Part shown: one piece after another, positions 13,094 through 61,340 of the stretch
Layout: each line of letters starts with the position of its first letter
How positions within the stretch are numbered: position 1 is the stretch's first letter
DNA from: Lysobacter sp. M2-1
GTDB lineage: Bacteria > Pseudomonadota > Gammaproteobacteria > Xanthomonadales > Xanthomonadaceae
DNA: 64,000 nt
NCBI RefSeq assembly: GCF_022662495.1
Contig: NZ_JAKPBU010000007.1
Span: forward strand, 124,001-188,000
Direction: 5' to 3'
Translations under genes and position numbers: made by a program
Notes under the pieces: generated by a model
Told to the model about the DNA's origin: nothing
What the model saw: only the letters and a program-made list of their open reading frames with translations
Databases searched by the model: none

Positions 13094-13199
13094 CGTGGGA
13101 GCGAGGGCAGTCACGACTTTGGGAGCGGCATTGGCCGCGAATCCCGTTGGCCCACCCACAAGCACAAGAGCATTCGCGGCCAGGTCCGCTCCCAGCTAC
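13094..13199. repeat. REP-like palindromic element
   Basis: Two forward heads, GTGGGAGCGAGGGCAGTCACG and TTGGGAGCGGCATTGGCCGC, face one reverse head ending GGCCAGGTCCGCTCCCAGC. The element fills the gap between the divergent-looking ends of the GST gene and the POT gene start. Its right end contains the stop codon of the GST gene (13196-13198). Confidence 0.8.
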
Positions 13200-17045: not shown

Positions 17046-18944
17046 CTACGAAGCCGATTCCAGCTCGGACCAGCGCGCGTACGCTGCGTCCAGCTCGGCC
17101 TGGGCCGTGGCCAGCTCTGCATTGCGGGCCACGATCGTGGCGGCGTCCTGCTGGTAGAACGCAGGTTCGTGCATCGCAGCGCCCAGCGCGGCCAGTCGCG
17201 CTTCCAGCGTTTCGATCCGGCCCGGCAGCTGCTCGAGTTCGCGGGTTTCCTTGAAGCCCAGGCGCCGACGCGGCGGCGCGGATGGCGTGGCCTTTACCGG
17301 ATTGGTCGCAGCGGCACCCGGCTTCGAGGGCGGCGGAGTTGCTGCAGGCTCGCTGCGTTGCCGCAGCCAGTCGCTATATCCGCCCACGTATTCACCAACG
17401 CGGCCCTGACCCTCCATGACCAGGGTCGAAGTCACGACATGGTCGAGGAAATCGCGATCGTGGCTGACCAGCAGCAGGGTGCCCGCATAGTCGGCCAGCA
17501 GTTCCTCCAGCAGCTCCAGAGTTTCCACGTCGAGGTCGTTGGTCGGCTCGTCCATCACCAGCAGGTTGGATGGCTGCGCGAACAGCCGCGCCAGCAGCAG
17601 CCGGTTGCGTTCGCCGCCCGACAGCCGGGTGATCGGCGCGCGCGCGCGCTCGGGCGTGAACAGGAAATCCTGCAGGTAACCGAGCACGTGCTTGCGGCTG
17701 TCGCCGATCTCGATGAACTCGCGGCCGCCGGCGACGTTCTCGATCGCGTTCCAGTCCTCGCGCAGGGTCGACCGGTACTGGTCGAAATAGGCCACCTGCA
17801 GTTGGGTGCCGAGCCGCACTTCACCGGCCTGCGGCGCGAGCTCGCCCAGCAGCAGCTTGAGCAGCGTGGTCTTGCCGCTCCCGTTCGGCCCGATCAGTCC
17901 AATCCGGTCGCCGCGCAGGATGGTGGTGCTGAAGTCCTGCACGATCGGGACCGCGCCGTGCGCGAACGAGACGCCGCGCGCCTCGATCACCTTCTTCCCG
18001 GAGCCTTCCGCCCTGGCCGCCTGCATGCGCACATTGCCGGCTTGTTCGCGCCGCGCCGCGCGCTCCACCCGCATCGCCTCGAGCCGGCGCACTCGGCCCT
18101 CGTCGCGGGTGCGGCGCGCCTTGATGCCCTGGCGGATCCAGGCCTCTTCCTGCGCCAGCAGCTTGTCGAAGCGCGCGCTCTCCTGCGCTTCGGCATTCAG
18201 GCGCTCCTCGCGCCTACGCTGGTAGTTGTCCCAGTCGCCCGGCCAACTCGTGACCCGGCCACGGTCGATCTCGACGATCCGGGTGGCCAGCGCGCGCAGG
18301 AAGCGGCGATCGTGGGTGACGAACACCAGCGCACCGCTCCAGCCTTTGAGGAAGCCCTCAAGCCAGTCGATGGCCTCGATGTCGAGATGATTGGTCGGCT
18401 CGTCCAGCAGCAGCAGATCGGGCGCCGAAACTAGGGCCCGGGCCAGCAGGACGCGTCGCTTCATGCCGCCCGACAGGCGTGCGAAGTCGGCATCGCCGTC
18501 CAGCCCCAGCCGGGTCAGGGTATCGGCGACACGCTGGTCGAGCGACCAGCCGTGCGCCGCTTCGATCCGCGCCTGGACCGCGGCCAGCGCCTCGGTATCG
18601 CCCGTGTCGGTCCCGGCAGCGAGCGATTCGATCAGATGGTGGTATTCGGCCAGCAGCCTGCCCAGCTCGCCCAGGCCCGTGGCCACGACGTCGAATACGC
18701 TCCCGGCGGCGTCCTGGGGCACTTCCTGCTCCAGGCGCGCGATGCGGCGGCCGCCTTCGACCCGGACCGCCCCATCGTCCGGCTTCAGGTCCCCTGCCAA
18801 CAGCTTGAGCAGGGTCGACTTGCCCGCGCCGTTGCGGCCGATCAGGGCGATGCGTTCCCCGGCCTCGATGGCCAGGTCGACATGTTCGAGCAGCAGCGGG
18901 CCGCCGACGCCATAGTCGACGCCGTTCAAGGTGATCAGAGGCAT
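17046..18944 (-). CDS. uup: ABC-F ATPase Uup
   Basis: The 632-residue soluble protein has two ABC ATPase modules and no membrane segments, as in the ABC-F family. Walker A motifs are GRNGAGKST near residue 38 and GPNGSGKTT in the second half. The signatures LSGGMKRR and LSGGERNR are both intact. The C-terminal extension after about residue 545 (PGRIETLEARLAALGAAM...) is the coiled-coil DNA-binding tail of Uup, linked to tolerance of branched DNA intermediates and ribosome function. ATG 18944 is used; a TTG two codons upstream is less likely. A fold-back repeat begins 7 bp before the start codon and would form the whole leader or promoter region. Confidence 0.94.
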   Translation of the reverse strand: MPLITLNGVDYGVGGPLLLEHVDLAIEAGERIALIGRNGAGKSTLLKLLAGDLKPDDGAVRVEGGRRIARLEQEVPQDAAGSVFDVVATGLGELGRLLAEYHHLIESLAAGTDTGDTEALAAVQARIEAAHGWSLDQRVADTLTRLGLDGDADFARLSGGMKRRVLLARALVSAPDLLLLDEPTNHLDIEAIDWLEGFLKGWSGALVFVTHDRRFLRALATRIVEIDRGRVTSWPGDWDNYQRRREERLNAEAQESARFDKLLAQEEAWIRQGIKARRTRDEGRVRRLEAMRVERAARREQAGNVRMQAARAEGSGKKVIEARGVSFAHGAVPIVQDFSTTILRGDRIGLIGPNGSGKTTLLKLLLGELAPQAGEVRLGTQLQVAYFDQYRSTLREDWNAIENVAGGREFIEIGDSRKHVLGYLQDFLFTPERARAPITRLSGGERNRLLLARLFAQPSNLLVMDEPTNDLDVETLELLEELLADYAGTLLLVSHDRDFLDHVVTSTLVMEGQGRVGEYVGGYSDWLRQRSEPAATPPPSKPGAAATNPVKATPSAPPRRRLGFKETRELEQLPGRIETLEARLAALGAAMHEPAFYQQDAATIVARNAELATAQAELDAAYARWSELESAS

Positions 18945-18950
18945 GGCCAA

Positions 18951-19214
18951 GGGCCTGTTAGCGCTATGGGCATGGGTCGCGTTCGTTCTGAGGGGCTGTC
19001 AGGTGGTGTTGCGCAGCGCAGGGCAGACTGGCCGTCTGGTCAAGCTGCGGGACGCCGGCTGGCGGCCCCTCAGAGCGAACCCGTAGGGCCGGGTTTGCGC
19101 GCACGCACGCCGGCGTCATCACTCGGGCGTGGATCCACATCCACTTCCTCGCTCTTCCTTGGCGTGCGCACGCGCAAACCCGGCGCGGCCCATGCCCATA
19201 GCGCTAGCAGGCCC
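18951..19214. repeat. 264-bp fold-back element A
   Basis: The ends are inverted repeats, 18951-18981 (starting GGGCCTGTTAGCGCTATGGG) and 19184-19214, matching at 29 of 31 positions. Inside lie two further inverted repeats: 18982-18996 with 19065-19080, and 19090-19112 with 19161-19183. A single strand would fold into a long stem carrying two hairpins. The element fills the gap between the divergent genes uup and the lysine-rich microprotein gene. No open reading frame inside is credible. Confidence 0.9.
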
Positions 19215-19276
19215 TAGTCTAGCGGGCCGCCCGGACTCGCAGTAGGCTTGCGCCGGGCAAAACCACGGAGCGCGCC

Positions 19277-41599: not shown

Positions 41600-42784
41600 T
41601 CAGAGCACCGCCACCGGATAGGAGCCGAGCACGCGCACCTCGCCGCTGTGCTCCCCCACTTCGGCAAGCGCATCCTTCAGCGGCGATTCGTCCATATGGC
41701 CGGCCACGTCGATGAAGAACGCGTACTGCCACAGATGGCCGTGCGCAGGCCGCGACTCGATCCGGTTCATGCTGATGCCGCGCCGCGCCAGCGGTTCCAG
41801 CACCCCGTACAGCGCGCCCGGCCGGTCGCGGATGAAGACCAGCAGCGAGGTGCGGTCGTGGCCCGAGGGCGGAAACAGTTCACGCCCCAGCACCAGGAAG
41901 CGGGTGGTGTTGTCGCTGCGATCCTCGATCGGACCTGCGATCTTCTTCAGGCCGTACACGTGGCCGGCCGACTCGCCGGCGATCGCTGCAGCGTCGTCGG
42001 CATTGCGCGCGCGGCGCGCCGCTTCGGCATTGCTCGACACCGGGATCCGTTCCGCCTTGGGCAGGTGCTCACGCAGCCAGCCGCCGCACTGCGCCAGCGA
42101 CATGGGGTGCGAATAGATCCGTTCGATGTCCTCGATCCGCCCGCTGCGCGACAGCAGGTGCTGGTGCACCCGCAGTTCGACTTCCCCGCAGATGCGCAGC
42201 GGCGAGGTGAGGAACATGTCCAGGGTGACCTGGATCGTGCCCTGGCCGGAATTCTCCACCGGCACCACGCCGAAATCGGCGTGCCCGGCCGCCACTTCCT
42301 GGAACACTTCCTCGATGCTCGCCAGCGGCAGTCCGTGCGCCGAATGGCCGAAGTGCTTGTGCACCGCCTGCTGCGAGAACGTGCCTTCCGGCCCGAGGTA
42401 GCCGATCTTCAACGGCTCCTGCTGGGCCAGGCAGGCCGACATGATTTCGCGGAACAGGCGCACCAGCACTTCGTCCGACAGCGGTCCGTCGTTGCGGTCC
42501 ACCACCCGGCGCAGCACCTGCGCCTCGCGCTCCGGCCGGTAATAGTCCACCGCCGCCGCCAGCTTGCCCTTGGCCTTGCCCACCTGGTGCGCCCACTGCG
42601 CACGCTCGGCGATCAGCTCCTGGATGCGGCGATCGATCCCGTCGATCTGCGCGCGAACCTCGGCGAGCTCGGGCTTTGCGGCGGACGCCTCCTTCTTGGC
42701 AGGTTTGCCCGATGCGGCGGGCTGCTTCTTCGTCGGCTTCTCCGACTCCGCCTTCTTGTTGCTTTTTGCTTTCTGATTTTTCAT
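41600..42784 (-). CDS. pheA: bifunctional chorismate mutase/prephenate dehydratase
   Basis: The 394-residue enzyme catalyses two steps to phenylpyruvate. Order: a basic N-terminal tail (1-45, lysine-rich), a chorismate mutase domain (about 50-135: ELAEVRAQIDGIDRRIQELI), a prephenate dehydratase domain (about 138-305: IGYLGPEGTFSQQA) and an ACT regulatory domain (about 310-394: RPGALYGVLEPLARRGISMNRIESRP) where phenylalanine binds to inhibit it. The start is ATG 42784. It lies downstream of the large inverted repeat and upstream of hisC. Confidence 0.97.
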   Translation of the reverse strand: MKNQKAKSNKKAESEKPTKKQPAASGKPAKKEASAAKPELAEVRAQIDGIDRRIQELIAERAQWAHQVGKAKGKLAAAVDYYRPEREAQVLRRVVDRNDGPLSDEVLVRLFREIMSACLAQQEPLKIGYLGPEGTFSQQAVHKHFGHSAHGLPLASIEEVFQEVAAGHADFGVVPVENSGQGTIQVTLDMFLTSPLRICGEVELRVHQHLLSRSGRIEDIERIYSHPMSLAQCGGWLREHLPKAERIPVSSNAEAARRARNADDAAAIAGESAGHVYGLKKIAGPIEDRSDNTTRFLVLGRELFPPSGHDRTSLLVFIRDRPGALYGVLEPLARRGISMNRIESRPAHGHLWQYAFFIDVAGHMDESPLKDALAEVGEHSGEVRVLGSYPVAVL

Positions 42785-42806
42785 CACGCACTCAATTGAA
42801 TCGGAC

Positions 42807-43223
42807 ACCCGGAGGGCGGCGGCCATGGATGGCCGCCGTTTTCGGACCGAGCCAGGATGGCGAGTCCGAAAATGGCGACGTCACTCCGCCCTCCTTGAGC
42901 GATCTTGATCTCACGAGGAGGCCGTTTTCTTTGGTTACTTTCTTTTGGGCCAGCAAAAGAAAGTAACTCGCCCGCAAGGGCGAAACGCCGTTGATCCTGC
43001 TCTTCGCAATATGCCGCACCGGATTTAGCCACTGAAGAGCAGGGCTTTCGCCTTCCGGCGAGTTACTTTTCTTTGCTGGTGCAAAGAAAAGTAACCAAAA
43101 GAAAGCACCTTCCTCGTGACGTCAAAACCGCTCAAGGCGTTTGCGGTGCCGCGGGAATTTTCGGACTCGGCATCCTGCCTCGATCCGAAAACGCCGGCCA
43201 TCCATGGCCGGCGCCCTCCGGGT
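42807..43223. repeat. 417-bp giant inverted repeat between serC and pheA
   Basis: The left arm (about 42807-43006, starting ACCCGGAGGGC) and the right arm (about 43034-43223) match as imperfect inverted copies around a loop of about 28 bases. Each arm has its own smaller palindromes: GGCCATGGATGGCC and GTTACTTTCTTTTG/CAAAAGAAAGTAAC near 42934-42966, and the counterpart near 43060-43096. It is the whole of the 479-bp gap 42785-43263. Small reading frames here are produced by the repeat and not supported as genes. Confidence 0.9.
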
Positions 43224-43263
43224 TTCCGGATGCACTGACTTCTGGAAGAAACCGGCAAAGCCT

Positions 43264-48666: not shown

Positions 48667-49064
48667 GGGGCGATCATCAGCGCGATACGGCCGATGGAGT
48701 AGAGCGACGCGAGCGCGCCGACCACACAGGCCAGGATGACGAGGAACTGGAGGACGAGCTCGGTAGCGCGGGTGTGCACGTAATCCTCGATCACCACCTG
48801 CATCCCCATCTGCGCGTGCCAAAACAGCGCGACCACGAACACCGACAGCAGGATCGCGTTCCAGGGTTTGCCCAGCGCGAACTGCACGCTGGCCAGGTCC
48901 GCACCTACGAACGACACCAGCAGACCCACCAGCCACGGCACCAGCAGCGCCAGCACCACGGCGGTCACCCGTTGCCACCAGAAATGCGCCGTGCCCGACT
49001 TCGCCGATCCCAACGCGCGCGCGCGCTGCATTGGATTGCGGTAGCGTCCGTTCGCGCTGCTCAT
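48663..49064 (-). CDS. sdhD: succinate dehydrogenase membrane anchor subunit
   Basis: The 133-residue protein has three membrane helices and anchors SdhAB at the inner membrane. The haem-ligand segment [14 protein letters not shown] is present. It overlaps sdhA and sdhC by ATGA at both ends (start 49064; stop at 48663-48665). Confidence 0.93.
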
Positions 49065-49447
49065 GCGTTGCCTCCCAGCGCAGCCCACCAGATCAGGACG
49101 GTGAACACCACCGTCAACACCGCCACCGCATAGCCGGACTTGTACACCTCGGGAATTTCGAAGCCCCAGCCGGCATCCCACAGCAGATGGCGGATGCCAT
49201 TGAGCAGGTGATAGACCAGCGCGAGCGAGAACCCGAACAGGACCAGCTTGCCCCAGGGCGATGCCAGGCATTCGGCCGCGCGCAGAGCGGACTCGCCGCC
49301 GGTGGCCATGGCCATCAGCCACCACGCCAGCGCGAAGGCACCGACCGTCAGCACCATGCCGGAGACCCGGTGCAGGATCGACATCACCATGGTGATCTGC
49401 CAGCGATAGACCTGCAGATGCGGCGACAGGGGACGTTGGTTGGCCAT
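49061..49447 (-). CDS. sdhC: succinate dehydrogenase cytochrome b556 subunit
   Basis: The 128-residue membrane subunit has [26 protein letters not shown] as the quinone-site start and the second haem ligand in [15 protein letters not shown]. Three helices are visible. It is first in the sdhCDAB unit. The start ATG 49447 is only 12 bp from the end of fold-back element B, so the promoter must lie within or above that element. Confidence 0.95.
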
Positions 49448-49458
49448 CGTGCGTTCCT

Positions 49459-49725
49459 AGAGCCTGTTCAATGCCTCCCCATGGCCCGCGCTGCGTCACG
49501 CTGCGCGCAGGCCAAGGAGGAGCGATGGAATGGATGTCGATCCATGACTGAGCGAGGACGCGGGCCTGGGTGCAGCGTGACCCAGCCCTTCGGGTTGTCC
49601 CGCAATGGCCGCCATGCGGCGCCGCGTGGCTTGACCTTGCAGGCAGCAAGGCGCGGCGCCACGCGGCACCACCTGACGGCCATTGCGGGACAACGCGGGC
49701 CATGGGGAGGCATTGAACAGGCTCT
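49459..49725. repeat. 267-bp fold-back element B
   Basis: The ends 49459-49490 and 49694-49725 are perfect inverted repeats of 32 bases, starting AGAGCCTGTTCAATGCCTCC. Inside, 49490-49513 pairs imperfectly with 49562-49586, and 49594-49611 pairs perfectly with 49677-49694 (GTTGTCCCGCAATGGCCG). The form is the same as element A: a terminal stem with two hairpins. It occupies the 5' region of sdhC. With the tail of the SdhAF4-like gene it fills the gap 49448-49788. Confidence 0.92.
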
Positions 49726-61236: not shown

Positions 61237-61340
61237 CCGTTCGTCCTGAGCGTAGGCGTGCAGCGCCGGAGTCGAAAGATGCATTTCGCGAAAGGCGTCC
61301 TTCGACTTCGCGCCGTCGGCGCTACGCTCAGGACAAACGG
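61237..61340. repeat. inverted repeat CGTCCTGAGCGTAG
   Basis: The left arm CCGTTCGTCCTGAGCGTAG (61237-61255) and the right arm CTACGCTCAGGACAAACGG (61322-61340) face each other, with an internal repeat CGGAGTCGAAAG/CTTCGACTTCG. It is a fold-back element of a kind common in pseudomonads and xanthomonads. It may lie in the leader of the E1 gene and beyond the GST stop. Confidence 0.75.

Follow-up and report, generated by a model that had tools for sequence, protein, structure and literature searches.

The fold-back unit in front of uup in Lysobacter sp. M2-1 is a miniature inverted-repeat transposable element (MITE), a non-autonomous element without a transposase that is repeated in its genome and belongs to a previously uncatalogued family of small mobile elements of the Xanthomonas/Lysobacter order. 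We put a probability of about 75% on the full account developed below, in which the MITE is moved by IS5-type transposases and its arms retain their complementarity through a DNA-level process, chiefly template switching. The features concerned lie within the window, i.e. the whole stretch of 64,000 nucleotides that was analysed, and are as follows.

18950..19215, plus strand: element A, complete 266-bp MITE copy in the standard orientation P1-P2-P3-P1'
18950..18980, plus strand: element A, left arm of outer stem P1; its outer ~16 bp correspond to the IS5-type terminal inverted repeat GGGCCTGTTA
18981..19080, plus strand: element A, hairpin arm P2, with the conserved 5' arm GTCAGGTGGTG and internal loop GGTCAAG
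19081..19087, plus strand: element A, junction mini-hairpin with the sequence CCGTAGG
19088..19184, plus strand: element A, hairpin arm P3, with the conserved apical domain CATCACTCGG..GGATCCACATCC..TCGCTCTTCCTTG
19185..19215, plus strand: element A, right arm of P1, followed by TAG (TA/CTAG target duplicate)
17046..18944, minus strand: uup, ABC-F ATPase flanking A (domains ABC_tran x2 and ABC_tran_CTD)
49459..49725, minus strand: element B, another complete copy, in inverse orientation to A and lying 11 bp upstream of sdhC
49061..49447, minus strand: sdhC, succinate dehydrogenase cytochrome b subunit (PF01127), flanking B

Anatomy and distribution of the element family

The terminal arms of element A (18950-18981 and 19184-19215) show 94% complementarity across 32 nt and enclose inner hairpins at 18978-19083 (78%, 40 nt) and 19088-19184 (92%, 24 nt). 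As single-stranded DNA the element folds into a three-way junction with -118.4 kcal/mol, whereas shuffled sequences average -63.6 (z -13.3, 0/200 shuffles); as RNA it likewise forms a three-way junction, at about -217 kcal/mol. The initial annotation, which had described a foldable unit with matching ends and two internal hairpins, directly in front of uup and free of a transposase, is thereby upheld: the edge of A lies 6 bp upstream of the uup ATG (18944, minus strand), and no transposase gene is present inside it. A search of element A for promoter-like or terminator sites found none, and a role as promoter or terminator was rejected. The same annotation had seen the plan of A again in B within 64 kb, and B indeed shares it, with ends 97% complementary over 35 nt; its claim that the two are unlike in sequence beyond the GCCTGTT edge was, however, mistaken because one copy is inverted, and B, once reverse-complemented, is 72% identical to A across ~200 bp (E 1e-20). 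A third copy, C, at 1731.7 kb of contig C1, brings the total for this genome to three, and these copies are only about 70% alike.

Further copies, for which a search had been proposed as a check, were found well beyond this genome: a DNA search located them in at least 40 of the 247 sampled Lysobacteraceae genomes and in 18 of 54 genera, with up to about 25 matches to a consensus query in one genome (G008). Rhodanobacteraceae also hold many copies, and the pattern of the P3 tip recurs in more than 100 stretches from Dyella, Rhodanobacter, Luteimonas, Lysobacter, Pseudoxanthomonas, Stenotrophomonas and Xanthomonas. Searches outside the order Lysobacterales gave weak matches only. Partial matches in other gammaproteobacterial families (L297, L299 and L300, in genomes G456 and G593) may represent contamination or transfer, two of them (L299 and L300) sitting at contig ends. 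One locus (L128, G008:C7:172259-173090) holds two family copies in opposite orientation, lying within ~600 bp of one another. Plasmid and phage records contained no match to the family, and carriage by either was rejected on this ground. About 146 distinct full-length copies from two bacterial families could be aligned over 267 columns with few gaps; together with the homology of A and B, this alignment leaves a negligible probability that the likeness is a chance resemblance of unrelated palindromes, an explanation that we rejected.

Across the family, P1 is an outer stem of 31 bp and P2 a 35-pair hairpin arm in which the 5' arm and the loop motif GGTCAAG are conserved; the junction mini-hairpin takes the form CCNNNGG, and P3, a stem of 21-24 pairs, carries the conserved apical domain CATCRCTCGG-N-hairpin-CCCTCNCTCTTCCTTG. 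Most full-length copies measure 263-268 bp, and size variants of 150-412 bp have one arm (P2 or P3) absent or enlarged. Shortened relatives of ~177-192 bp consist of P1 and P3 alone, or of P1 and P2 alone (L213, L162, L165, L166, L180, L240, L272 and L143, L136, L067), showing that the P2 and P3 arms behave as modules. A fixed-length RNA gene was rejected on account of the variants that lack P2 or P3, and a larger gene-bearing form sharing P2/P3 because split copies contained no transposase-sized spacer. Among 19 copies picked for divergence, both-side changes with pairing kept occur at 77 of 104 pairs (0/500 shuffles), 96.4% of cells are paired, and the covariation score is 0.656, as against 0.193 when shuffled and about 0.1 when slid. 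Alignment columns 153-158, in the lower P3 stem, form a CA/CG-type dinucleotide tract with alternating A-C/C-A mismatches in all copies, whose sense is the reverse of that of the P2 T.G mismatches considered below.

Insertion sites and probable IS5-type partners

Assignment to the MITEs follows from several properties taken together: the copies are short and non-coding, have terminal inverted repeats (the arms of A and B being 94-97% complementary), are dispersed, and are flanked by target-site duplications. Of 62 GAG-type copies, 24 have the same TNA on both sides, whereas 5000 permutations gave a mean of 10.1 and a maximum of 21; where TNA is present on both sides, N is identical in 24 of 36 copies (10.9 expected). 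GGG-type copies show CTAG on both sides in 20/58 cases and TA/TA in 36/58. Element A itself has CTAG on the right only, the left flank reading CCAAG, which is degenerate. Both of the remaining checks proposed for the unit thus gave positive results, the target-site duplications being TNA or TA/CTAG and clear empty sites in relatives being found at two loci, e.g. GTGGCCTGAGC and GACGACTGAGC as compared with the filled sites.

Where the left-hand gene reads toward the element, its stop codon lies exactly at the junction in ~27/51 cases, and use of the stop codon as target in about half of cases is what one would expect if insertions into C-TAA-G, C-TGA-G and CTAG survive. Insertion would accordingly be directed to C-TNA-G or CTAG, duplicating TNA or TA, and copies would persist either at stop-codon targets (TAA/TGA/TAG), because insertion re-creates the stop, or in tight intergenic gaps. 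A crude gene finder assigned the genes on either side of 101 copies; of these, 71 lie between co-directional genes, 24 between divergent and 6 between convergent ones, the last being fewer than we had expected.

PF13340 transposases are present in 51 of the 247 genomes, and complete insertion sequences (ISs) of 805-830 bp carry them, with TA duplications at their flanks. The ends of these ISs are GGGCCTGTTAACACTA (L362, L363, L372 and also L345/L346, the L346 protein combining PF13340 with DDE_Tnp_1) or GGGCCTGTCATCAATT (L359), and match MITE copies exactly over about 15-17 bp, each IS type corresponding to a different MITE subfamily. Ends in common with an autonomous element were seen for GGG-type subfamilies only; we found no IS partner for GAG-type ends, and the MITE interior bears no similarity to the complete ISs. 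Identity of the IS and MITE ends indicates that the outer half of P1 is the terminal repeat, of which the outer ~16 bp would be recognised by the transposase. We infer from these shared ends that transposases with PF13340 and DDE domains probably move the MITE, so that A and B, as copies of this Lysobacterales family, would have been mobilised in trans by enzymes of the IS5 superfamily; judging from the duplication lengths, the partner IS group is presumably IS427/IS1031-like. P2 and P3 are retained in all subfamilies regardless of terminal repeat, and the subfamilies appear to have exchanged their IS partner. A PF13340 gene is absent from the M2-1 genome and present in only 4 of 22 copy-bearing genomes, and across the family its presence is not associated with that of the element (about 9/40 versus 51/247); a resident IS5 (PF13340) was therefore rejected as a predictor of the element, and the copies are either old or were moved by another IS5 group.

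Maintenance of complementary arms

Comparison of six pairs of orthologous insertions revealed 37 both-side base-pair changes against 7.9 expected (maximum 16 in 2000 permutations), which indicates that complementarity has been restored in place, after insertion. Transversions account for 11 of 34 switches from one Watson-Crick pair to another at these sites, and such switches allow no wobble intermediate. In P1 one-side changes are almost absent, and its arms are near-perfect in Watson-Crick pairing. Template-switch correction, by which one stem arm would be copied from the other during replication, is the most likely means of keeping the arms paired, and is the reading we prefer. Template switching is a published maker of perfect stems, and correction of inverted-repeat arms by this route has microbial precedent and has been proposed to maintain RNA stems (PMC8794818). 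The elements described here resemble such template-switch hairpins in that compensatory changes span several bases and the stems show perfect Watson-Crick pairing; the published case, however, concerns RNA genes such as rRNA (PMC8794818), whilst here stems of 24-40 bp belong to a mobile DNA element.

Such strong covariation would also be expected of a mobile or cis-acting structured RNA, whose three-way junction would be preserved by RNA-level compensatory mutation, and two further observations point the same way: P2 has conserved T.G (U.G) mismatches on one strand, at positions 50, 55, 58, 61 and 65, with G-U far exceeding A-C there, and family-wide entropy is lower in unpaired columns (0.58) than in stems (0.88), i.e. 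the loops are more conserved. However, P2 alone shows this G-U excess over A-C. The tolerance of G-U over A-C that marks a structured RNA was not found in P1 (93 G-U versus 95 A-C cells in 146 copies) or in lower P3 (56 versus 92), so that no single strand fits RNA selection. Nor does host transcription act consistently: for P1, lower P2 and lower P3 summed, the G-U:A-C counts are 62:59 in the plus and 48:44 in the minus direction, single helices deviating in opposite directions with the total unchanged, and transcript-level selection was rejected for want of a consistent effect. The equal rarity of G-U and A-C mismatches in P1 and the indifference to transcription direction argue against RNA-level selection and for a process at the DNA level. 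The element shows no clear orientation bias relative to flanking genes (41 versus 30), and its pair switches in place include the transversions noted above. An Rfam search returned no match at gathering score, miRNA and snoRNA models scoring at chance level only, and membership of an Rfam RNA family was rejected as no curated covariance model matched; this, the promoter search in A and the mismatch ratios together make the structured-RNA explanation very unlikely.

Conversion between elements, swapping whole hairpins and so mimicking compensation, is suggested by the clustered double changes in L210/L282 and L150/L209 and by the P2 segment of L282, which resembles that of L212/L259. Some of the clustered changes could indeed have arisen in this way. 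As a general explanation it is nevertheless improbable, since the double changes in L262/L278 are isolated and scattered, and copies as diverged as A, B and C would make poor recombination substrates.

Pure arm correction does not account for everything, as it would erase the conserved T.G mismatches of P2 and leaves the greater conservation of loops than stems across the family unexplained. After insertion, the loops drift at least as much as the stems (44/300, 14.7%, versus 127/1302, 9.8%), which, given their conservation in the family, fits a requirement during propagation; the conserved loops may thus act in cis at that stage. These loop data, the near-perfect Watson-Crick arms and the retention of P2 and P3 whatever the terminal repeat are also what would be seen if folded DNA (a lagging-strand hairpin or cruciform) were needed for mobilisation, with pairing selected in transposing lineages and no arm correction. 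We regard this as possible but doubtful: selection confined to propagation does not predict double changes at orthologous sites after insertion, and no requirement for a folded substrate is known for IS5-type DDE transposition. Similarly tentative is the proposal that the three-way junction serves as a functional module of folded DNA whose loops are recognised as single strands or in a cruciform, whether by the transposase, by replication or by a host protein. Template-switch correction remains the preferred explanation for the pairing itself.

Relation to known repeats and significance

The family resembles IS5-superfamily MITEs (IS427/IS1031-type) in sharing its terminal repeats with complete ISs over 15-17 bp, in its TA/TNA duplications, in lacking an open reading frame and in having dispersed copies; unlike them, it has an interior that is a conserved, covarying junction of ~265 bp with conserved loops, not derived from an IS. 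ERIC, Correia (NEMIS) and RUP elements are likewise MITE-like, about 100-155 bp long and forming a single long hairpin. The present family shares with them the small intergenic palindrome, the TA-type duplication and the strong fold of the element as a whole, but is a ~265-bp three-way junction with other hosts and another sequence, sequence being compared via Rfam only; from ERIC it is set apart by size and hosts. With REP/BIME sequences (RAYT, IS200/IS605-like) it has in common intergenic hairpins and a CTAG near the foot, yet it possesses true target-site duplications (the N of TNA being equal in 24/36) and terminal inverted repeats in common with DDE-type ISs, which does not agree with IS200/IS605-REP (RAYT) elements, as these have hairpin ends acting in single-stranded form and do not duplicate their target. 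The searchable literature, which left most subscription papers and ISfinder out of reach, contained no description of the family; MITE status as such is ordinary, whilst a covarying three-way junction with exchange of partners is undescribed in that literature.

Other repeats also occur in the window. A large inverted repeat at 42779-43251, with 184-nt arms 73% complementary and inner arms TTTTCTTTGGTTACTTTCTTTTG / CAAAGAAAAGTAACC, looks like another dispersed fold-back repeat; a REP-like hairpin at 13120-13194 (TGGGAGCGGCATTGGCCGCGAA...TTCGCGGCCAGGTCCGCTCCCA) resembles a common gammaproteobacterial REP; and nested palindromes at 61237-61340 (arms CCGTTCGTCCTGAGCGTAG / CTACGCTCAGGACAAACGG) belong to another short repeat type.

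The aligned copies constitute an extensive natural data set: stems of 24-40 bp remain near Watson-Crick perfect despite sequence turnover, and they do so within a mobile DNA element and largely free of the wobble bias of RNA. They make testable the contested question of whether long inverted repeats are kept perfect by selection or by template-switch correction, and they warn that covariation by itself is no proof of a functional RNA. As regards annotation, the family accounts for recurrent structured gaps of ~265 bp at gene ends in Xanthomonadales. Should the junction prove to be a folded-DNA module, mobility would depend on shape and not on sequence, and terminal repeats could be exchanged for those of different IS5 transposases whilst the module is retained.
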